Source: Synechococcus elongatus PCC 11801 (lineage in GTDB: Bacteria > Cyanobacteriota > Cyanobacteriia > Synechococcales > Synechococcaceae). From it: a stretch of DNA of 64,000 nucleotides. The stretch is taken from NCBI RefSeq assembly GCF_003846445.2, contig NZ_CP030139.2, forward strand, positions 744,001 to 808,000. Reading direction: 5' to 3'. A model generated the notes under the pieces. The model did not search any database, was not told the DNA's origin, and was given only the letters and a program-made list of their open reading frames with translations. Position numbers and translations under genes: made by a program. Of the stretch, positions 35,608-47,079 are shown one piece after another (within the stretch, counting starts at the first letter, position 1; each line of letters starts with the position of its first letter).

Positions 35608-38557
35608 GGACAGCTCCTAACTGGCGGATTTCGACCAGCAGTTGCTCGATCGCTAAGTTCCCTTTGGCAATCACCTGACTGACCCGTCCCTGAAGGCGCT
35701 GGCGATCTTGTTCGGTCAGGTCTTTGGCCGTCACGACAATCACCGGTAGGGTTTGCCAGCGATCGCTAGCCCTCAAGGCTTCGACAAAGGCAAAGCCATC
35801 CATCTGCGGCATCATCAAGTCCAGCAAGATCAAGTCTGGCAAAGCTTCCATCGCTTCTAAAACCGCCAGCGCTTGTTGACCCTCTTCCGCATCAGCCACC
35901 TGCCAGCCTTCGCGTTCGAGCAACTGCCGCAGCAGCGATCGGTTGGTGGGGTCATCATCGATGACTAAAGCCTGATGCTGGCGATCGGCTTCGGTGTAGC
36001 GTTCTAGGATCCGGCGCAGTTGATCGCGATCAATGGGTTTGTGGAGATAGTCAGCAGCACCCAGCGCATAGGAGAGCGATCGCCCCTCCACCATGCTGAC
36101 CATGACGACGGGAATCTCCGCGAGTTCGGGGTCGGCCTTAAGCGACGTGAGTACTGACCAGCCATCGACTTGGGGCATCATCAAATCCAGTGTGATCAGC
36201 GCTGGCCGCAGTTCCCTCGCCCGCTGTAAGCCTTCGGCACCACCCGCCGCCGTGACGACGCGATAGCCTTCTTTTTCCAGCATGCGGCGCAACAACTCGC
36301 GGGCGCTAGGCTCATCATCTATGACTAAAATGACCGGCTGATTCTGATTCACCGGGGTAGAGGCTGGCGCGATCGCCTCTTCCGTCAGCATCGGATCGAC
36401 TGCCGGTACCGATCGCAGCGGTTGCACGTGGCGTGGCAGGGTAATTGTGAACGTACTGCCTTTTCCCGGCACACTCTCAACCGTAATTTCGCCTCCCATC
36501 ATCTCGACAAAGTGGCGACTGATCGAAAGACCCAGACCCGTGCCCCCAAATTTGCGTGTGGTGGAATCGTCCGCCTGAGCAAACGCCTCAAAAATGCGAT
36601 CGATTTGTTCAGGCGTCATGCCAATGCCGCTGTCAGCGACCTTGAAGCAAATCTGATCAGCTTGAGCTGCCACAATTAGCTGCACCGTGCCCTGTTGCGT
36701 AAACTTACTGGCATTGGAGAGCAGATTGAGCAGAGTTTGACGCAGCTTGGTGACATCAGCAGTCATCTGGCCAATATCCGCAGGGCAGTCCACTAGGAGT
36801 TGATTCTGGTTTTTCTCAATCAGCGGTTTAATAATCGACTTCACTCCGTTGATCAGCTCCGGCAGGGAGAAGCTTTCCAGGTACAGCTCCATCCGCCCGG
36901 CCTCAATTTTGGAGAGATCGAGAATGCTGTTGATCAACTCCAGCAAATGTTTGCCAGCATTGTTAATCTTGCGGAAGTCGGGGAGTAGTTCCGCTGCATC
37001 AACGCCCTCCTCCGCTTCTTCCATCATCATTTCGCTGTAGCCAATGATGGCGTTGAGGGGCGTGCGCAACTCATGACTCATGTTGGCGAGAAACGCACTC
37101 TTGGCTTGGTTGGCGGCTTCAGCCTGTTCACGAGCCTGTTCCAGATGTTCATTCGTTTCTTGGAGCGCCGCCGTCCGTTCTTCAACCCGTTGCTCCAAAC
37201 CCACTAGGAGATCGCGCAGGGTCACTGCCATGCGATTGAAGGCTTGGGCTACCACTGTCAGCTCATCGCGACCACTGGTGCGAATTTGCTGTTGGAGGTT
37301 GCCATCTGCCATGGCATCTGCAGCCTGAGCCAGCTGTTCAATCCGCTGCCCCAAATGGGTCGCCCAACTGTGGGCCGCGATCGCCCCGAGAATAGCAATG
37401 ATGCCGCCAATCAGCAGCTGGATGTAGAGCGATCGCTGCTGAATCGCTGCCAGTTGCGTAAAGGGTTGGGCAAACTCCTGCTCATCTTGGCTAATACCAA
37501 TCACCCAATCCCAAGGCTGGTAGTAGACCAGCAGCATTTGTTGCTGGCGGGGCTCATTATCAGTCTCTCGCGCTGAACTCCAGTAGGAGCTGGAATAGCG
37601 AATCCGGTGAAAGGTGCCGGGCTGGCGGACCGCTTCAGCGATTGTGGGGCGCAGGAAAAAGCGACCGGCCGCGTCTTTCGCATCCCAGAAATTTTGCTTT
37701 CTAAAAGTGGAATCACTGCTGAGAATCGGCTCACCGCGCTGGCTACCCTGCCCCAGGAAGACGAACGCAGAGCCCGTCACACCAAAGCGTAGATCTTGGA
37801 AAGATCGCGCCAGTTCACCCGTTTGATCTTGCTTTTGGCCAGCGTAGATCATGCCAATAATTTGACCGCTGGCATCTTTGAGGGGCTGATAGACGGTGAT
37901 GTACCAACCGTTGACGACATAGGCGGGGCCGCGATACGTCTTGCCCTGCAAAACTGCAGCAATGACGGGGTTGGGCTCCCCGCTGGGATTGGTGGCAGGA
38001 ATATAGGTCGCGATCGCCCGTTGTTGAGTGGCTGTGGGGACGGTGGTCGCCACCCGCAGCATGTCGCCTTGGGCATTGATCCGCTGAAAAATCGTGACAG
38101 TTCCCCCCATCTGCTGAACGACTTCGTCAATGGCTGGCACCACTTGTTCGAAGTCGCGCACTTGCCCCAGCCAGCGGCCGCCGATCTGCATTTCCGGAAG
38201 CTGCACAGGGGTGATGACTTGGGTGTATTGATTGCGAGCCTGCCAAGACACCAGTCTCGACCCAAGACTCAGACCACCCGCGCGCGCAATTGTATTTTCT
38301 AAAACCCGCAGTTGACTACTGAGTTGCTGATTGATCGCGCTGCCTTGGGCCCGCACCACGGTATAGGTACGCGACAGGATAGTCTCTTGCTCGCGCTTGA
38401 GCAGGCTTTGCACCTCATTGCGGCTGGCTTCGCTGAGGCGGGTGTTGGTGATCACATCTGCCAGCGAGATTGCCGCGATCGCTGTAAAGGTTGTCCCGAC
38501 TCCAAATAGCAGGAACTGACGGCGCAACTTCATAGCAGTCGGAGGTGAAGGGGACAA
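35600..38557 (-). CDS. Hybrid sensor histidine kinase with two receivers
   Basis: A 985-residue kinase. Order: N-terminal membrane helix (12-32); periplasmic Cache-type sensor with [17 protein letters not shown] and [11 protein letters not shown] (about 40-365); second membrane helix (about 378-398); HAMP; coiled coil; HisKA with His495 ([20 protein letters not shown]); HATPase ([34 protein letters not shown]); then receivers with Asp791 and Asp913 (both in LDLMMPQ). It should phosphorylate itself, both receivers, and perhaps the adjacent single-receiver proteins. It is the second gene of a four-gene operon. Confidence 0.92.
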
Positions 38558-38578
38558 CCAAGGCTAGCGGTTGAGGCT

Positions 38579-38944
38579 CTAGCGTTCGAGCAGTTGGGCA
38601 ATTTTACTGAGGAGCCGCGGCAGCTCGATCGGTTTGGTGTCGTAGTCATCACAACCCGCAGCAATTGCCTTCTCGCGATCGCTGGCCATGGCATGAGCCG
38701 TCAGGGCAATCACAGGCGTTTGTTGCAACTCAGGATCGGCTTTCAGTTGACGGGTCGCTTCCCAACCATCCATCACAGGCAAGCTCATGTCCATCAGGAT
38801 CAAATCCGGCTGCTCTCGCCGTGCCGTCGCGACCCCCGCTGCTCCATCGTGGGCCAATACCACCTCAAACCCTTTGCGGGTGAGACGTCGCGACAACATA
38901 TCCCAGTTATCTTCGTTATCTTCAACCAACAAAATTTTGGCCAT
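38579..38944 (-). CDS. Single-domain response regulator
   Basis: A 121-residue stand-alone receiver: KILLVEDNEDNWDMLSRRL, phospho-acceptor Asp in LILMDMSLPVMDGWEA, and ALTAHAM with the conserved Thr. The ATG at 38944 is favoured over a start five codons upstream. It is the first gene of the signalling operon, 21 bp before the hybrid kinase, and so is its likely diffusible phospho-partner, in the manner of CheY- or DivK-like relays. Confidence 0.9.
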   Translation of the reverse strand: MAKILLVEDNEDNWDMLSRRLTRKGFEVVLAHDGAAGVATARREQPDLILMDMSLPVMDGWEATRQLKADPELQQTPVIALTAHAMASDREKAIAAGCDDYDTKPIELPRLLSKIAQLLER

Positions 38945-39055
38945 GACTATTCCTCTCACCCACTGCGATCGCCCCAGCTCGTAACGATAGGAGGGGCAAC
39001 CGCTATCTTATGTGTTCCAATTATCCCGATTCTGCCAAACTCTCCAATCCCAAGG

Positions 39056-39322
39056 TTAGAAAGAGTCATCCGAGTGTTGGGGTGGTGTGGCTTCTAACTG
39101 TTGCCACGTACTGAGCAAGAGATCGGACAACCACTGTCGTTGGCGAGGCTCGAGTAGCGGATCTTCCGTCAAAATTTCGGCCTGTAAATCTGCCAAACTT
39201 TGCCCTTGGATTCGAGCCAATTGGATAATGCCAACGATCGCGGTTGCCAACGTTTCACTATCTGCTGGTTGCCGACAGAGATTTAACAGCTCTTCCCGAT
39301 TAGTCGGAATGGGATAGGACAT
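39056..39322 (-). CDS. Hypothetical protein, 88 residues
   Basis: A small acidic helical protein (MSYPIPTNREELLNLCRQP; LAEILTEDPLLEPRQRQWL-like pattern). No domain is recognised. The ATG at 39322 is chosen because the upstream part of the frame (to 39481) overlaps the divergent gene and looks non-coding. It lies 111 bp upstream of the receiver operon on the same strand. Confidence 0.55.
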   Translation of the reverse strand: MSYPIPTNREELLNLCRQPADSETLATAIVGIIQLARIQGQSLADLQAEILTEDPLLEPRQRQWLSDLLLSTWQQLEATPPQHSDDSF

Positions 39323-39470
39323 GGGAATCAGCTGTTGTGGGAGTGAGAAAAGATTGTTAATGCTGATGAATCTTACCCTGCATTTCTGCTGGGTCAAGGG
39401 ATGGACAGCGGCTTGCGCTGTTGGTGTGACAGCTGCCCCATCTCCCAGTGATTGAACCGGTAGGCTCTCC

Positions 39471-40016
39471 ATGACGATCACACTGAATGTCTATGGATTA
39501 ACGCAACAGCGATCGCTCACGACTATTAACGCTTTTGTGGAGGAGCATTGCGATCGCGCAGCCATTGAAGATCTCGAGGACTCGGCGTTAATGATCCTTC
39601 GCCCTGATGCCACTGATCCCGATCGAGAGGAGTCCTATGATTTTCTGCCAGTTGACAGTCTTAGCCAAGCGATCGCTGTCGGTTTAGAACAGCCTAGCTG
39701 GGCATTTAGCCTCTATTTGCCAGCCAAGGATCCGACGATCGATCAAGTGACGGTTAGTTTCTGCCGCGATCGGCAACTGGTTCTGGGCTTAGCACTGCCC
39801 GACACTGATACTGCTCCCCAGCAAGCTCAAGCCTTTCTACGAGAGTGGGCCGATCGCTATGACTGTCGGCTCGGCTTGATCGCAGTTGAAGCACTGCCAC
39901 CCTTCGATACTCAAGATCTGGCCCGCGTGGCTCAGCGATCGCTTCTGACACTGTTTGTGGGACCTTGCCGCTCGCACGATCCGGTCAATGCAGAATGGCC
40001 GTCGGTTGTCCCCTAA
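39471..40016 (+). CDS. Hypothetical protein, source of a duplicated fragment
   Basis: A 181-residue acidic soluble protein (MTITLNVYGLTQQRSLTTIN; ILRPDATDPDREESYDFLPV; VTVSFCRDRQLVLGLALPD). No family is recognised. The 168 bp from the HIP1 octamer at 39509-39516 to that at 39669-39676 recur, about 90 percent identical by hand alignment, at 40958-41125. That copy is a fragment without the rest of the gene. Confidence 0.65.
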   Translation: MTITLNVYGLTQQRSLTTINAFVEEHCDRAAIEDLEDSALMILRPDATDPDREESYDFLPVDSLSQAIAVGLEQPSWAFSLYLPAKDPTIDQVTVSFCRDRQLVLGLALPDTDTAPQQAQAFLREWADRYDCRLGLIAVEALPPFDTQDLARVAQRSLLTLFVGPCRSHDPVNAEWPSVVP

Positions 40017-40060
40017 AGTGATTGAGGCTGATTGCTCCTTCTGGAATTGCCCTGAACCTC

Positions 40061-40588
40061 ATGACTGAGCGCCTTTTAATTCTCTTCATTGCAACCAGCC
40101 TAGATGGCTACATTGCTCGCCTCGATGAGGGCATTGATTGGCTGTTTGATGATGCTGACTATGGCTACAGCAACTTCTATGCCCAGGTTGATACGGTGCT
40201 GATGGGTCGCAAGACTTACGACCTCTCGATCCGCTTGAGCAACGATCCCTACCCTGGCTGCAAAACCTACGTGTTTTCGCGATCGCTTGCTTCAGTGGCC
40301 GATCCAGCTGTGACTGTCGTGCAGGGCAATCCAGGGGATCTCGTTACTCAGCTCCAACAGCAACCCGGTCGGCACCTCTGGCTCGTGGGGGGTGGTCAAC
40401 TGGTGCAGCAATGTCTAGCAGCAGATTGCCTCGATCAACTCATTATCTCGATTCATCCGATCTTGCTGGGTAGCGGCATTCCGCTCTTTTCCAGTGGTTT
40501 TCCCGAACGACACTGGCAACTCATCAAAACTCAGGCTTTCCCCAGTGGGCTAGTGCAATGTACTTACAACAGAGTTCGAGAAGAATAG
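40061..40588 (+). CDS. RibD C-terminal / dihydrofolate-reductase-like protein
   Basis: A 175-residue protein of the RibD_C/DHFR fold. LFIATSLDGYIARLDEGIDW, DTVLMGRKTYD and HLWLVGGGQLVQQCL (NADPH-binding) are characteristic, as is ISIHPILLGSGIPLF. Family members are NADPH-dependent reductases of unknown substrate, related to riboflavin reductase and DHFR. The ATG at 40061 is chosen for the typical LLILFIATSLDG beginning. Confidence 0.82.
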   Translation: MTERLLILFIATSLDGYIARLDEGIDWLFDDADYGYSNFYAQVDTVLMGRKTYDLSIRLSNDPYPGCKTYVFSRSLASVADPAVTVVQGNPGDLVTQLQQQPGRHLWLVGGGQLVQQCLAADCLDQLIISIHPILLGSGIPLFSSGFPERHWQLIKTQAFPSGLVQCTYNRVREE

Positions 40589-40618
40589 AACAATCGCAGG
40601 AATGTTACGTGATATCAG

Positions 40619-40965
40619 CTAGCTCGGCGCAAAGTAGACCTGGCGGCGTGCTTCAAATAACCCGATCGCGACACTGACCGAGAGGTTCAAACTGCGCACA
40701 CCGGGCTGCGTAATTGGAATTCGAAGCCAAACATCGCAACTGGCCATCACATCATCAGGGAGACCACTGGTTTCCCGTCCATAGAGCAACCAATCATTTT
40801 CCTGAAATTCAAAATCAAGGTAATTCAGGTCACCTTTGGTGGTGAAAGCAATGAGCCGGCCACCCTGTTGCTACTGCTGTTGCTGGAATGCTGACCAATC
40901 AGGATGGGTTGTGAGCTGGACGTACGGCCAATAGTCGAGGCCCGCACACTTGAGATAGCGATCGC
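40619..40965 (-). pseudogene. trmL remnant, N-terminus replaced and nonsense codon
   Basis: A second, degraded copy of the trmL gene at 44559-45023. It retains the region for residues from SDRYLK to the C-terminus. CAG has become TAG at 40871-40873 (QQQQ*QQGGR against QQQRQQQGGR), and the last codons read FAPS* instead of YAGR*. The first ~38 codons, including the start, are missing. Similarity stops exactly at a GCGATCGC octamer (40958-40965), where a different sequence begins. It cannot encode an active methyltransferase. Confidence 0.85.
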
Positions 40966-41125
40966 TCACGACCATTAACGTTTTTGTGGCGGAGCATTGT
41001 GATCGCGCAGCCATCGAAGATCTCAGGGACTCGGCATTGATGATTCTTCGCCCTGATGCCACTGACCCAGATCGAGAAGAGTCCTATGATTTTCTGCCAG
41101 TTGACAGTCTTAGCTTAGCGGTCGC
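40958..41125 (+). pseudogene. Fragment of the 39471-40016 hypothetical gene
   Basis: 168 bp matching 39509-39676 with about 16 differences, mostly at third codon positions, so the copy diverged under coding-like constraint or came from a related strain. It begins at the HIP1 octamer shared with the trmL remnant and ends at GCGGTCGC, a one-base variant of the HIP1 octamer that ends the parental segment. The frame runs on into unrelated sequence. No ribosome-binding site is visible. Confidence 0.8.
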
Positions 41126-41127
41126 TG

Positions 41128-41247
41128 TTATTGCTCACGGCTGGTTTGCGCAGATCCCGGCGGCAGTAGCCGACAGCCCGAAGCCGTGAAGAGTACCAGC
41201 AGGCAGGCTAGCCCGAGGCGAGAACGGGAGTGAGCAAAGACGGTCAT
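41128..41247 (-). pseudogene. 5' remnant of a lipoprotein gene
   Basis: A 39-codon frame starting MTVFAHSRSRLGLACLLVLF and continuing TASGCRLLPPG. It has a basic start, a hydrophobic core and an ASGC lipobox, a complete lipoprotein signal. It stops 15 residues after the lipobox cysteine, 2 bp from the edge of the duplicated fragment, so the rest of the gene appears to have been removed when the mosaic formed. The alternative, a tiny genuine lipoprotein, is less likely. Confidence 0.5.
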
Positions 41248-41449
41248 GGGGACAAGGTGGGAAGAGGGGAAGAGGCAAACTTGCAAAATCTCTTTACAGT
41301 CTGCATGAGAGAGGCAGTGGTCGGAGTAGGGCAAGTGTGCTGGTATACATAACCAGCGATGATGTCGCCCTCAGCGATCGCTGTAGAGGTGATCATGAGC
41401 TACCGTCGCCATGGGAAATGTGACGACAAAGTAACAAAAATGTTTCCAA

Positions 41450-41473
41450 GGTGAGTTAGAGAATCAACTCACC
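41450..41473 (+). other. Inverted repeat in the gap upstream of the YHS gene
   Basis: GGTGAGTT at 41450-41457 and AACTCACC at 41466-41473 form a perfect 8 bp stem with an 8-base loop and no U-tract. It could be a regulator site or an RNA hairpin. The surrounding 41248-41743 is AT-rich and holds no other gene that I can support. Confidence 0.35.
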
Positions 41474-41536
41474 GAAGCCCTTGAGCTTCAACAAGGCCAG
41501 GGGTTGCAATCAGACCAATAGATAGATTGTCACAGG

Positions 41537-41552
41537 ATTTAAATGAATTTAA
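41537..41552 (+). promoter_or_regulatory. Direct repeat, candidate OmpR-type regulator box
   Basis: ATTTAA at 41537-41542 and again at 41547-41552, one helical turn apart, about 190 bp before the YHS-domain gene. Direct hexamer repeats with 10-11 bp period are the usual target of OmpR-class regulators such as the one encoded at 43872-44552. In AT-rich DNA this could be chance. Confidence 0.25.
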
Positions 41553-41743
41553 GCTGAATAATTTAGACAAGATAGTCATTTATTTTTAATCATTCTTTGG
41601 CCACCCCTCATTTGATAATCATTTAAAACGAGTGATACCACAGTAGTCTTGCTTTAGCTAAATCTGACTTTTGTTTTCAGCTCATACCTTGAGACTAGAA
41701 ACCTTAATCAGTTATTTAGCAGAACAAGGAAAATCAAGAAACC

Positions 41744-42277
41744 ATGAAACTTAGCTCTCTTCTAATCTGTGGCCTAGTCGGCCTAGCTTCTGTTGGCGTT
41801 ATCAACAGTCTTGAAGCAGCAACTTCTCCTCAATCTGTCGAAACTTCTTCTAGAGATTCTAGGCTTGCTCAAGCAGCAACTCGTTTTCCAGCAGTTTATA
41901 ATGAGAACGGTATTGCTTTAGACGGCCAAGATGTTGTTGCATACTTTCGTGCCAATTCACTGGTGCAAGGTAGTCCGAAATTCACTCACACTTGGAATGG
42001 TGTAAAGTGGCAGTTCTCAAGTGCCATGAATCGTGACTTATTTGCAAAAAATCCAACTCAATATGCTCCGCAGTATGGTGGCTACTGCGCTAAAGCTGCA
42101 GCTGGAGGTGTTTTAGCTACAACGATTCCTAATGCCTGGGAAATTCGCGATGGAAAACTTTACCTGAATTACAGTTTAGAAGCTCAGAAAGAATGGAAGC
42201 AAGATACAGCAACTAAGATTGTAAAAGCCAATGCGAATTGGCCTAAAATCCTCAATAATGACACCCTAAAAAGATAG
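41744..42277 (+). CDS. Secreted YHS-domain protein
   Basis: A 177-residue protein with an N-terminal signal peptide (residues 1-26, LLICGLVGLASVGVINSLEA). A YHS domain spans about 55-125: ALDGQDVVAYF, FTHTWNGVKWQFSS, NPTQYAPQYGGYCAKAA. YHS domains are small Cys-containing modules often linked to copper or heavy-metal handling. AAGGAA precedes the ATG. A strong hairpin follows the stop, then a kinase/regulator pair, so the protein may be a target or sensor partner of that system. The gene is AT-rich. Confidence 0.83.
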   Translation: MKLSSLLICGLVGLASVGVINSLEAATSPQSVETSSRDSRLAQAATRFPAVYNENGIALDGQDVVAYFRANSLVQGSPKFTHTWNGVKWQFSSAMNRDLFAKNPTQYAPQYGGYCAKAAAGGVLATTIPNAWEIRDGKLYLNYSLEAQKEWKQDTATKIVKANANWPKILNNDTLKR

Positions 42278-42285
42278 CGTTTCAA

Positions 42286-42324
42286 CAAGCGATACAGTAT
42301 CTAACTTAAATACTGTATCGCTTG
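42286..42324 (+). terminator. Strong hairpin after the YHS gene
   Basis: CAAGCGATACAGTAT at 42286-42300 pairs perfectly with ATACTGTATCGCTTG at 42310-42324, a 15 bp stem with a 9-base loop starting 9 bp after the stop codon. The sequence continues CTTTAAAGACGTTTTT. It probably ends most YHS transcripts before the kinase gene, or attenuates read-through. Confidence 0.65.
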
Positions 42325-42426
42325 CTTTAAAGACGTTTTTATCAATCAAAATGAGAAGTCAGACATAATGTATGTGGCTTGTTTCTAAAAGCAAAATCTT
42401 GATCTAAAGAAATTCTAGCCAAATCA

Positions 42427-43875
42427 ATGATTCATCGTATTCAATCAATTCTTAAAAGTCTTTTGAGGAGACGAGTTTCTGCAAACTCCTTACAGTTTAG
42501 ACTCACTCTTGAGTTGACCCTAATCTCTGCTTTGGGTGTATGCAGCATCACATTATGGTCCGCTTGGCGACTTGAGCAAACTCTGATTAATGGTTATAAA
42601 CAAAATCTGAGTTATGTTGCTGATAGCTTTCCTGAAAGAATTAAGATTAGCAGTCTCAATGACTCTATTCAACTAGAGCTTGAACGATCGATCGCCCAAA
42701 TTTCTAAACCAAGGCTTCTTATTTGGGTACGCAGTCCGCAAGGAAAAATCCTAGCGCGATCGCGAGGAATGAATATACCTTCAAGCGACTTAATTGAAGT
42801 TGTTAATAAGTTACCCATATCGAATGACCCTCAAGTCTTTCACATACAGCAGCAATCTTTCATCCTTGCTCAGAGCTATCTAAGCCTTGATGGAACTCCT
42901 CTTGGAAATGTATATTTGCTTCAAGATATTACAGAAGATCAGAGACAGTTAGATACTTTGTTTAGTCAACTAAAACTAGGCAGTATTTTACTGACTTTTA
43001 TCTTGATAGTTGTGATAACTAGCCGAATCCGTAGGGCAATGGTTCCGATCAAGGAAATAAGTAAAATTGCTAGTAATATTTCAGTGATTGATCTTGGTGC
43101 AGATCCTCTTGAACTTCGCCATGCTCCTGATGAAATTCTAGGACTTGCAAAGACTTTCAATGATATGTTGAATCGTCTATCTATTAGCTGGGAGCAACAG
43201 CAACAGTTTGTCGGTAATGTTTCCCATGAGCTCAAAACACCACTGACAGTAATTTCAGGATATCTACAAAGCCTTTTAAGGAGAGGTGATAATCTTAATT
43301 TTCATCAAAATCAAGCTTTAGAAATAGCGTCTTCAGAAGCAGAAAGAACGATTCGAATGCTTCAAGACTTACTAGATCTTGCAAGAGTTGACAGTGGCAA
43401 TCTTCATTTCCGTCTCATGCCAACCGTATTAAATACTCTGATAGTAGAAGTGGCTGAAATGACACATCGTGTCAGTGGCCGTGAAATTGTTATACATGAA
43501 AATAACAGTGGAATTGTTGTCTATGCTGATCAGAATCGTTTAGAGCAAGTTTTGATCAATCTGCTCGATAATGCTGTCAAATATTCGAACAAGGATGAAG
43601 TGGTCTACATTAATTTAGAGCAGTCTGGCCAACAAACCTTGATTCACATCATCGATCAAGGAGTAGGAATCCCTCTTGCTCACCAAAGTCGTATTTTTGA
43701 GCGATTTTACCGAGTGGATGAAGGCATGACACGATCGCGCGATGGAACTGGGCTAGGGTTGGCAATTGCCAAAAGCTTGATTGAAGGTATGCATGGCAAA
43801 ATCACACTTCGTTCCAAACCGGGTGAAGGCAGTACATTCACCATCATCTTGCCCAGCTGGGAACCCCTGCCATGA
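42427..43875 (+). CDS. Membrane sensor histidine kinase
   Basis: A 482-residue kinase. Transmembrane helices at about 32-50 and 180-200 flank a ~125-residue periplasmic sensor. HAMP follows, then HisKA with His267 (NVSHELKTPLTVISGYLQSL) and HATPase (NLLDNAVKYSNKDEV; DGTGLGLAIAKSLIEG). The end overlaps the regulator start by 4 bp (ATGA). The architecture is that of EnvZ/CopS-like kinases. With a YHS gene upstream, a metal or redox cue is a reasonable guess, but the ligand is unknown. Confidence 0.92.
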   Translation: MIHRIQSILKSLLRRRVSANSLQFRLTLELTLISALGVCSITLWSAWRLEQTLINGYKQNLSYVADSFPERIKISSLNDSIQLELERSIAQISKPRLLIWVRSPQGKILARSRGMNIPSSDLIEVVNKLPISNDPQVFHIQQQSFILAQSYLSLDGTPLGNVYLLQDITEDQRQLDTLFSQLKLGSILLTFILIVVITSRIRRAMVPIKEISKIASNISVIDLGADPLELRHAPDEILGLAKTFNDMLNRLSISWEQQQQFVGNVSHELKTPLTVISGYLQSLLRRGDNLNFHQNQALEIASSEAERTIRMLQDLLDLARVDSGNLHFRLMPTVLNTLIVEVAEMTHRVSGREIVIHENNSGIVVYADQNRLEQVLINLLDNAVKYSNKDEVVYINLEQSGQQTLIHIIDQGVGIPLAHQSRIFERFYRVDEGMTRSRDGTGLGLAIAKSLIEGMHGKITLRSKPGEGSTFTIILPSWEPLP

Positions 43876-44552
43876 ACAATCATATTTTGCTCGTTGAAGA
43901 TGACCCAAAGCTTTTGCAGTTTATTGAGCAGGAACTTAGCTTAGAAGGCTACCAAGTAACAGTTGCTAATAACGGTCTAGATGGCCTGTCTTTAGCTCGG
44001 AGTATTCAACCCGACTTACTCATCCTTGACTGGATGTTGCCAAATCTGTCTGGAGTCGATATCTGCTTGAGGCTACGATCGACTGGTGTTCAAACACCCA
44101 TTATTTTGCTCACTGCTAAAGACGAAGTGTCTGATCGTGTTTCAGGACTCAATTCCGGTGCTGATGACTATGTCACAAAGCCTTTTAGTATCGAAGAGTT
44201 GCTAGCGCGAGTTCGCGCTAGATTGCGGTGGGCTAACACAGGTGAATCCGATCGACTTGAGTTCGAGGATGTCTCACTCAATCGTGTAACTCACGAAGTT
44301 TATCGAGGCCAGCAGCGGCTTGAACTTACGGCCAAAGAGTTCGATTTATTAGAGTTTCTGCTGCGGCACCCCCGGCAGGTTATGACCCGAGACCAAATTT
44401 TGGAACAGGTTTGGGGTTATGACTTTATGGGTGAGTCCAACATTATTGATGTCTACGTGCGGGCTCTGAGACTCAAATTAGAAGCTTTTAATTCGAAACG
44501 CATTCTTCATACGGTGAGAGGCGTTGGCTATGTTATTCGCGACTATGGCTAA
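43872..44552 (+). CDS. OmpR-family response regulator
   Basis: A 226-residue regulator. Receiver 1-118 has the acidic pair in LLVEDDPK, phospho-acceptor Asp53 (LLILDWMLPNLSG) and Lys in VTKPFS. The winged-helix DNA-binding domain is at 128-225 (LTAKEFDLLEFLLRHPRQVM; YVRALRLKLEAF; VRGVGYVIRDYG). It is coupled translationally to the kinase upstream and converges with trmL with a 6 bp gap. Confidence 0.94.
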   Translation: MNNHILLVEDDPKLLQFIEQELSLEGYQVTVANNGLDGLSLARSIQPDLLILDWMLPNLSGVDICLRLRSTGVQTPIILLTAKDEVSDRVSGLNSGADDYVTKPFSIEELLARVRARLRWANTGESDRLEFEDVSLNRVTHEVYRGQQRLELTAKEFDLLEFLLRHPRQVMTRDQILEQVWGYDFMGESNIIDVYVRALRLKLEAFNSKRILHTVRGVGYVIRDYG

Positions 44553-44558
44553 TTAAGG

Positions 44559-45023
44559 TCACCGGCCTGCATAGTAAAGCTGGCGACGAGCCTCAAATAC
44601 CCCAATCGCGACACTGACCGAGAGGTTCAAACTGCGAACGCCGGGCTGTGTAATTGGAATTCGAACCCAAACATCGCAACTGGCCATCACATCATCGGGG
44701 AGACCACTGGTTTCCCGTCCATAGATCAACCAATCATTTTCCTGAAATTCAAAATCGAGATAATTCAGGTTACCTTTGGTGGTAAAGGCCACCAACCTGC
44801 CACCCTGTTGTTGGCGCTGTTGTTGCAGCGATTCCCAATCAGGATGAATCGTCAGTGGCACATAAGGCCAGTAGTCTAATCCTGCCCGTTTGAGATAGCG
44901 ATCGCTCAGCTCAAACCCCAGCGGCTCAATTAAGTGCAAAGGCGTCTCGGTGGCAGCACAGGTGCGAGCGATGTTGCCGGTATTGGGAGGAATTTCGGGC
45001 TGAAAGAGCACGACCTGCGGCAT
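44559..45023 (-). CDS. trmL: tRNA (cytidine/uridine-34 2'-O)-methyltransferase
   Basis: A 154-residue SPOUT-fold enzyme. VLFQPEIPPNTGNIARTCAA at the start, LIYGRETSGLPDDV and ITQPGVRSLNLSVSVAIG are the three SPOUT motifs that bind AdoMet in the C-terminal knot. It methylates the wobble ribose of certain leucine tRNAs. A broken copy of about three quarters of this gene lies 4 kb upstream at 40619-40965. Confidence 0.95.
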   Translation of the reverse strand: MPQVVLFQPEIPPNTGNIARTCAATETPLHLIEPLGFELSDRYLKRAGLDYWPYVPLTIHPDWESLQQQRQQQGGRLVAFTTKGNLNYLDFEFQENDWLIYGRETSGLPDDVMASCDVWVRIPITQPGVRSLNLSVSVAIGVFEARRQLYYAGR

Positions 45024-45099
45024 GGGAGAGAGCTAACGCAAACACAGCAGTCTCTGATTCTCTCGTCTCACCCAGAATCCCGTCTAGCGCGATCGCCCC

Positions 45100-46500
45100 T
45101 TAATCGCTGGCTTCACCACCCACGACGACATCTCGAATCCGCAAGCTCGGACCACCGCAGCCCACAGGTAAACCGCTCTGGCCACCCTTGCCACAACCGC
45201 CGGACTCATCCCAAACAAAGTCATCCCCAATTGCTTCGATCGCCGCTAGCGTCGAGAAAACATTGCCCGAGAGTGTGACGTCACGCACTGGCTCAGCCAG
45301 CTCACCATTGCGAATCATCCACGCTTCACCCGCAGTGAAGGTAAACATCTCGCCATTGGTCATGCCACCCAACCAGTTGCGGGCAAACACACCCTGCTCA
45401 ATGCCTTGGATTAGATCTGCAGCCGGTGTTGTTCCCGGCGCAATCCAAGTATTAGTCATCCTCACAATCGGCGGATAGTGAAAGTCCAAGCAGCGGGCAT
45501 TGCCAGTCGGTGCTTCCCCGAGTTTGCCTGCCGTTTCCCGTGAATGCAGACGACCGGTTAAGACGCCATCTGTAATCAAGGCAGTTGTGGTGGCAGGCAC
45601 GCCTTCGTCGTCGTAGGCATAGCTGCCACGATGTCCCTCGGGTGCTGCACCATCGAAGATTTTCAAGCTTTCTGGGCCAAATCGCCGGCCTAGGGTCATC
45701 ACTTCCAACAGCTCAGGGTTTTCGTAGGCCATATCCGCTTCCGAAAGATGGCCAAAGGCTTCGTGCACAAACAGACCCGTCAGGATCGGATCGATGACAA
45801 CGGTGTAAGTTCCCGCTTCCACGACCGGGAGTGCCAGCGATTTCAAGGCCCGATCGCGCGCCCCTTGTACGGCAGTGTCTAGACCCAGCAGATCTTCCCA
45901 GCCACGGCGGGAGCCGGTGGTCTCACGCCCTGTTTGGACGCGATCGCCCTCGCGCGCTGTCGCGGCAAAGCGCATTTCCCAATCTGACCAGGACTGTTCC
46001 AGCAGCGTCCCTTCTGAAGTCGCGAGTAGTAAACGCTGGCTGCTGTCGCCATAGCGGACACTGGTGCTGGCAATCCGGTGATCGCCACTGCGCAGGACAT
46101 TGGTGTAGTGCTGGCAGAGAGCTTTCTTGTCCGCAAGAGCCACTTGATCGGGCGATCGCCCCGTGAGGGGTGCCGTCCAAATAGCACGGATGGGATCAAC
46201 CGGCGCCAACTCCGTTGTTGCAGTACCAATCAGGCGAGCTGCCGCGATCGCTTCTTGCAGCCGATCTTCGAGCTGACTGAGACGATTGAAACTGGCAAAG
46301 CCCCAGCCCCCTTTCCAGCAAGCCCGAACTTGGCCGCCCACTGCTAAACTTTCGCTCAAGGTTTCGAAGCGATCGCCCCGCAGGGAAATATCCGTGGTCT
46401 GCGACTCTTCGAGGCGAATCGCCAAAAAATCAGCACGATCGCGATAGCGACGAATCAAGTCTTCGAGCTGCTGACGGGCGGCATCAAAATCGAGGGTCAC
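45100..46500 (-). CDS. tldD: TldD-family metalloprotease
   Basis: A 466-residue TldD/PmbA-type protein. The metal motif is VHEAFGHLSEAD with HExxxH starting at His246. The C-terminal GCGKGGQSGLPVGCGGPSL carries the conserved cysteines and glycines. TldD normally pairs with TldE/PmbA in peptide maturation or degradation; no partner is in the window. It is preceded on the same strand by a small membrane-protein gene. Confidence 0.93.
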   Translation of the reverse strand: MTLDFDAARQQLEDLIRRYRDRADFLAIRLEESQTTDISLRGDRFETLSESLAVGGQVRACWKGGWGFASFNRLSQLEDRLQEAIAAARLIGTATTELAPVDPIRAIWTAPLTGRSPDQVALADKKALCQHYTNVLRSGDHRIASTSVRYGDSSQRLLLATSEGTLLEQSWSDWEMRFAATAREGDRVQTGRETTGSRRGWEDLLGLDTAVQGARDRALKSLALPVVEAGTYTVVIDPILTGLFVHEAFGHLSEADMAYENPELLEVMTLGRRFGPESLKIFDGAAPEGHRGSYAYDDEGVPATTTALITDGVLTGRLHSRETAGKLGEAPTGNARCLDFHYPPIVRMTNTWIAPGTTPAADLIQGIEQGVFARNWLGGMTNGEMFTFTAGEAWMIRNGELAEPVRDVTLSGNVFSTLAAIEAIGDDFVWDESGGCGKGGQSGLPVGCGGPSLRIRDVVVGGEASD

Positions 46501-46566
46501 GGGGCTTCAGCGATCGACGCTTTTATTGTGACCTGACTGGTCCTTCCATCGCGATCGTCACTGCCC

Positions 46567-46947
46567 CTATCCCAGCTCTTGATTCACGTTTTGTTCTGCC
46601 GCTTCGAGCTGTTGCCGGATTTTGGAGACCCGTAGACCGGCCTCGACAGCTGAGCCAATGCCAACGCCACCAAAGCCCAGATAGACGCCAATGAGTCCGA
46701 GCGTTACTGTCGTTGCGATCGACTCTTCTTCAGAGAGGCTTTCATTCTGGGCGATCGCGGATCCGAGCAGGGCTCCGCCAGCCCCACCAATGAAGGCGCA
46801 ACCAAAAGCCAGCAGTCCACCAATCCAAAAGGCTCGCCAGCGCCGCTGATAGATGTAGCCCGTACCATTGCAGCCCAAATTCAGCACCACACCCAGCCAG
46901 CCCGCTGATTGGGCAATAATCTGATCCTTTTCCCGCTGGGTGAGCAT
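46567..46947 (-). CDS. Small membrane protein, unknown
   Basis: A 126-residue protein (MLTQREKDQIIAQSAGWLG) with three hydrophobic segments: about 17-30, 40-65 (FWIGGLLAFGCAFIGGAGGA) and 80-100 (VTLGLIGVYLGFGGVGIGSA). A Gln/Glu-rich coiled C-terminus follows. The pattern GxxYxxRxxxxFWIG recalls TM2-type small membrane proteins but is not diagnostic. It lies 66 bp upstream of tldD on the same strand. Start at 46947 chosen over one six codons earlier. Confidence 0.6.
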   Translation of the reverse strand: MLTQREKDQIIAQSAGWLGVVLNLGCNGTGYIYQRRWRAFWIGGLLAFGCAFIGGAGGALLGSAIAQNESLSEEESIATTVTLGLIGVYLGFGGVGIGSAVEAGLRVSKIRQQLEAAEQNVNQELG

Positions 46948-47079
46948 TACAGTGACTCCTCGCACGACGCTGACATTCTAGGGCGCGATCGCGGGAATGC
47001 CATCCTCTCTGGCACAGAGCTTTACCCTTGACATTGGGGCCAAGTTTCGTTCAGGAGTCAGCGATCGGGTGAGGATCGG

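Follow-up and report, generated by a model that had tools for sequence, protein, structure and literature searches.

The window analysed here, a stretch of 64,000 nucleotides that corresponds to C1:744001-808000 of a 2.8-Mb cyanobacterial source genome (hereafter G000), contains at 40620-41353 a scar composed of three gene pieces, namely the 3′ part of trmL (trmL′), 172 bp of an orphan gene (orphan′) and an hlyD/RND-adaptor gene represented by its 5′ end, and each piece has a single parent elsewhere in the genome (Table 1). In the self-comparison, 40629-40968 aligns with 44569-44908 of trmL (minus strand) over 340 bp with 52 mismatches (85% identity), and 40957-41128 aligns with 39508-39679 of the orphan gene over 172 bp with 16 mismatches (91% identity); both alignments are ungapped, and the two pieces show no frameshift in 512 bp. 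trmL′ stays in frame to its own stop with one TAG, and thus represents nearly the whole 3′ part of the gene. The third piece, 41131-41353, is 83% identical to G000:C1:1469713-1469935, where an intact HlyD/RND adaptor gene (TIGR01730) has its 5′ end. An earlier sequence-only reading had described a mosaic of two fragments, a trmL remnant and an orphan-gene fragment that meet at a HIP1 octamer; this description is correct as far as it goes, but the hlyD 5′ end (41118/41131-41353) had been missed.

Table 1. Features of the scar and of its parent genes (positions in the window; G001, the same-genus genome used for comparison).
Feature	Position	Strand	Remark
Orphan gene, intact (181 aa), from which the middle piece derives; copied stretch 39508-39679	39471..40016	+	ORF
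Parental HIP1, left end of the copied stretch	39509..39516
Parental HIP1, right end of the copied stretch	39669..39676		another HIP1 between, 39550-39557
RibD_C/DHFR-like gene; left edge of the breakpoint formed by its 3′ end	40061..40588	+	Pfam PF01872; G001 homology stops at 40566
Junction sequence between RibD and trmL′, without HIP1	40589..40619
trmL′: 3′ part of trmL, from HIP1 to the in-frame stop CTA (40620-40622); one internal TAG, no frameshift	40620..40968	-
Join 1, AGCGATCGCTCA, common to both parents	40957..40968
Copy of orphan-gene 39508-39679; 16 mismatches, no indel	40957..41128	+
Join 2, GCGGTCGC, a decayed HIP1; parents (39669, hlyD) both have GCGATCGC	41118..41125
hlyD/RND adaptor 5′ remnant and its upstream region; G001-colinear on to 44552	41118..41353	-
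Synteny breakpoint; flanks ~50 kb apart in G001 (2424158, 2374361)	40567..41117
Intact trmL, parent of trmL′; HIP1 44898-44905	44559..45023	-	Pfam PF00588; TIGR00185 slightly under cut-off

The orphan gene has no Pfam or NCBIfam match, and no relative of it was found in G001, the sole same-genus genome compared, nor in the rest of the 145 cyanobacterial genomes searched; at its site, the homologous flanks are separated by only ~208 bp in G001. The gene carries four HIP1 sites, at 39509, 39550, 39669 and 39935, and the copied stretch spans the first three of them. Therefore, while the equal length of parent and copy proposed from the sequence holds (172 bp ungapped, 16 mismatches), the proposal that the copied piece runs from one HIP1 to the next has to be given up, as the HIP1 at 39550-39557 lies inside it.

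At join 1, the trmL and orphan-gene alignments overlap on AGCGATCGCTCA (40957-40968), which is found in both parents and contains HIP1 at 40958 in the scar, at 39509 in the orphan gene and at 44898 in trmL; among the direct repeats that the two genes share, this 12-bp one is the longest. At join 2, the scar has GCGGTCGC at 41118-41125, aligned with the parental GCGATCGC at 39669-39676, and a three-way alignment places GCGATCGC in both intact hlyD genes as well (G000:C1:1469703-1469710 and G001:C1:2374354-2374361), with three extra scar bases adjoining the octamer relative to hlyD. Since both intact hlyD genes keep GCGATCGC, the second join is likewise shown to be HIP1-to-HIP1, in register apart from these three bases, and GCGATCGC thus stands in register in both parents of both joins. 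Random pairs of positions have an in-register HIP1 at a rate of only ~7e-5 per junction, so that chance does not account for where the joins lie. We hold with high confidence that both inner joins are HIP1-to-HIP1 microhomology joins, which upholds the sequence-only reading in its placing of both fragment ends at HIP1 and in its proposal of a rearrangement that used HIP1 as microhomology. A further HIP1 at 41374, ~20 bp past the end of the hlyD homology and with the same spacing at 1469956, was judged to be a chance occurrence because the intervening bases are unrelated.

The comparison with G001 places the scar at a boundary of gene order. On the left, G001 homology stops at 40566, shortly before the RibD-like gene ends, and points to G001 2424158; on the right, it begins at 41118 and points to G001 2374361. 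The flanks thus map ~50 kb apart in G001, and the scar marks a breakpoint where rearranged blocks meet. Past 2424158, the G001 sequence corresponds to 725-738 kb of G000 in the opposite direction, and further rearrangements separate the two genomes at several places nearby. Intact hlyD lies 684 kb distant in G000, in a block (1463896-1469932) colinear with G001 2380162-2374132, and in G001 it is intact and adjoins the locus, where the efflux operon stands intact next to the YHS-domain gene, at precisely the place at which only the hlyD remnant is left in the window. Just past the YHS-domain gene of the window lies a 39-bp inverted repeat (42286-42324, 92% self-complementary), which is probably a terminator hairpin.

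The scar interval most likely has no function and arose by illegitimate recombination between short direct repeats. Bacterial tandem duplications are known that have their joints at such repeats and were later trimmed by deletion, and we propose a route of this kind, a tandem duplication followed by trimming deletions, to which, taken as a whole, we give an even chance. First, the segment from the orphan-gene HIP1 (39509) to the trmL HIP1 (44898-44905) would have been duplicated in tandem by exchange between these two sites with their 12 identical bases, and the exchange would create a joint trmL′|orphan′ that reads exactly as 40957-40968. Subsequently, the redundant copies would have been lost through two deletions, one from the third HIP1 of the orphan′ copy (the next but one) to the hlyD HIP1, which would give join 2, and the other from the RibD end to the trmL′ end. 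Each gene would thereby keep one intact copy, and the efflux operon would survive solely at its other location. HIP1 would serve here as the commonest longer microhomology of the genome, and a HIP1-specific enzyme would be unnecessary.

The arrangement of the pieces is what a tandem joint predicts: trmL′ precedes orphan′, each in its parental direction, and across the joint the sequence passes from the distal parent (trmL) to the proximal one (the orphan gene), an arrangement with a chance of 1 in 8 by our own count. Parental direction and distal-to-proximal order together therefore fit a tandem duplication between the orphan-gene and trmL HIP1s. The scar resembles tandem duplications in general in the direction, order and microhomology of its joint, and differs from them in that the microhomology is the most repeated octamer of the genome and that the duplication itself is gone. 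Just the pieces adjoining the joint remain of the duplicated segment; at 40589-40619, a candidate remnant of the response-regulator 3′ end, by which the left edge would be fixed, was rejected, as its score was reached by 165 of the 500 shuffles. Several features count against the tandem route: the left edge (40589-40619) has no recognisable microhomology, join 2 has three extra bases relative to hlyD, and the divergence of trmL′, described below, is more than one duplication would explain.

A single replication-based repair with template switching (MMBIR-like) is a tentative alternative. A broken end past RibD would have used trmL as its first template, moved at HIP1 to the orphan gene and at a second HIP1 to hlyD, and gone on copying past this last switch, deleting the intervening DNA. 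One event would then cover the three joins together with the loss of the efflux genes, with 8-12 bp of homology at two switches and with both templates within ~5 kb. However, template switching alone does not predict that both copies lie in parental direction and in the order of a tandem joint, and its first join, at the left edge, shows no visible microhomology. As the end product is the same as that of the tandem-duplication route, sequence alone hardly separates the two.

The divergence of trmL′ from resident trmL is strikingly uneven, with 11 mismatches in 190 positions within 40653-40842 and 41 in 138 outside, and none of 500 permutations was equally clustered. Outside this tract, trmL′ differs from G001 by 17% and resident trmL by 28%. 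Because trmL′ is ~30% different from its parent outside the 190-bp tract and is nearer to G001 there, simple divergence after one duplication is insufficient, and the tandem-duplication route needs an added allele replacement or conversion in trmL. Our reading is that resident trmL was partly replaced by a foreign allele, or that the copies were converted, after the scar had formed, in either direction. The proposal from the sequence that the scar is not recent is borne out. Additionally, divergence from G001 is 0.23-0.30 over 44100-44900 (the response-regulator 3′ end and trmL) versus ~0.15 around it; the sharp change of divergence lies inside resident trmL, and 44100-44900 is a probable imported allele. 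One scan of genome contigs returned only distant trmL relatives and no close strain.

We consider it unlikely that the scar arose in a different strain and entered whole by natural transformation, the gene differences then being strain differences. That trmL′ still reads as protein, without a frameshift and with 10 of the 13 trmL′-specific changes at third codon positions, would agree with such an import, and so would its greater nearness to G001 outside the tract. However, replacement of resident trmL explains the pattern equally, the divergence from G001 being locally raised over 44100-44900, and there is no sign of import around the scar, as 41118-44100 is colinear with G001 at ordinary divergence.

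The proposed route takes HIP1 as a common repeat, and a special role of HIP1 is not supported. Within 883 kb of the chromosome, HIP1 is contained in 45% of the direct repeats of at least 10 bp and in 54% of those of at least 12 bp that lie within 5.4 kb. HIP1 thus makes up about half of the long direct-repeat microhomologies, so that two HIP1 joins of two are unremarkable, being expected about 1 in 4 times (0.54 x 0.45) among microhomology joins from abundance alone, and the 12-bp repeat is merely the longest one that the two genes have in common. Nor did the enrichment of HIP1 at the edges of other duplications, which the sequence-only reading had set as a check, appear in the 883 kb and additional 60 kb sampled, roughly one third of the chromosome: among 49 other duplicated pairs, a single one of 98 edges has HIP1 in both copies, against ~0.24 expected by our arithmetic from one HIP1 per 370 bp, in a comparison of low power because most of these pairs are gene paralogs or belong to a repeat family. 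The tightest other G000/G001 breakpoint examined (1463863-1463896) has no HIP1, and the other breakpoints are too loose to judge. The use of HIP1 above its microhomology share, as site-specific recombination would imply, was not found in these tests. Therefore, HIP1 was probably used for its abundance and not for a special recombination function.

The contrary explanation, that HIP1 is an active recombination site, by an enzyme or by methylation-directed cutting at GCGATCGC, and that the scar is its product, is very improbable. It would account for both inner joins lying at HIP1, and site-specific recombination at HIP1-containing sites has been reported for PCC 7002 plasmids (PMC4390886; PMC9239245), but the abundance of HIP1, the edges of the duplicated pairs and the HIP1-free breakpoint described above all speak against it. 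We give similarly little credence to the broader view that HIP1 octamers are preferred exchange points shaping cyanobacterial chromosome order, the scar then being the fossil of two exchanges at one species-level breakpoint. In general, finding HIP1 at a junction says little on its own in favour of a HIP1-specific mechanism, and the proper null for HIP1-directed recombination is its share among microhomologies, not base composition or HIP1 density. A mobile element insertion is not indicated, since 38000-47000 holds no inverted repeats of at least 30 bp and each piece has just one parent elsewhere in the genome, and neither is a plasmid origin, as megablast returned no match in the plasmid collection.

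It was reportedly a deletion at the smt metallothionein locus of Synechococcus PCC 6301 that first drew attention to HIP1; Gupta and colleagues are said to have described this HIP1-bounded deletion in 1993. Like the scar, this is a rearrangement joined at HIP1 octamers in the same genus; it was, however, selected in the laboratory, whereas the scar is old and natural, comprises three gene pieces and lies at a species-level breakpoint. A review considers a role of HIP1 possible in site-specific recombination in PCC 7002 and, far less efficiently, in illegitimate recombination in PCC 7942 and Escherichia coli, and sees no evidence of a link between HIP1 and homologous recombination (PMC4390886). 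To judge from the title of reference 6 therein, the frequencies of HIP1 excision in E. coli and PCC 7942 are similar, which argues for a generic mechanism. Both this HIP1-promoted excision and the plasmid recombination in PCC 7002 (PMC4390886, references 6 and 5) resemble the scar in showing illegitimate or site-specific recombination at HIP1 or its inner CGATCG, and differ from it as experimental plasmids or constructs without a duplication scar. The 188.6-kb inversion between somB and somB2 of PCC 7942 is, like the scar, an S. elongatus chromosomal rearrangement with HIP1 near both ends; it lies within two porin genes, however, and the HIP1 in each is ahead of the inversion and not at the join (PMC9239245). 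Deletions, plasmid fusions and an inversion associated with HIP1 have thus already been reported, and the scar is a new, well-resolved natural case of a HIP1 microhomology rearrangement, in which both parents of both joins are still readable.

Two further repeated sequences were observed. Rfam gave nothing at the gathering threshold in the window. A dispersed repeat of ~145 bp, without an Rfam match, occurs at L083:18694-18839 (G000:C1:723693-723838), at nine more places in G000 and at ~24 in G001; its first half contains a HIP1 and its second half two strong hairpins rich in G+C, and several partial copies consist of the second half only, at 92-96% identity. Additionally, G000:C1:925282-925352 and 931367-931437, ~6 kb apart, have 71 bp in common at 93% identity; both stretches end at a stop codon, their edges are without HIP1, and the pair looks like a separate small 3′-end copy.
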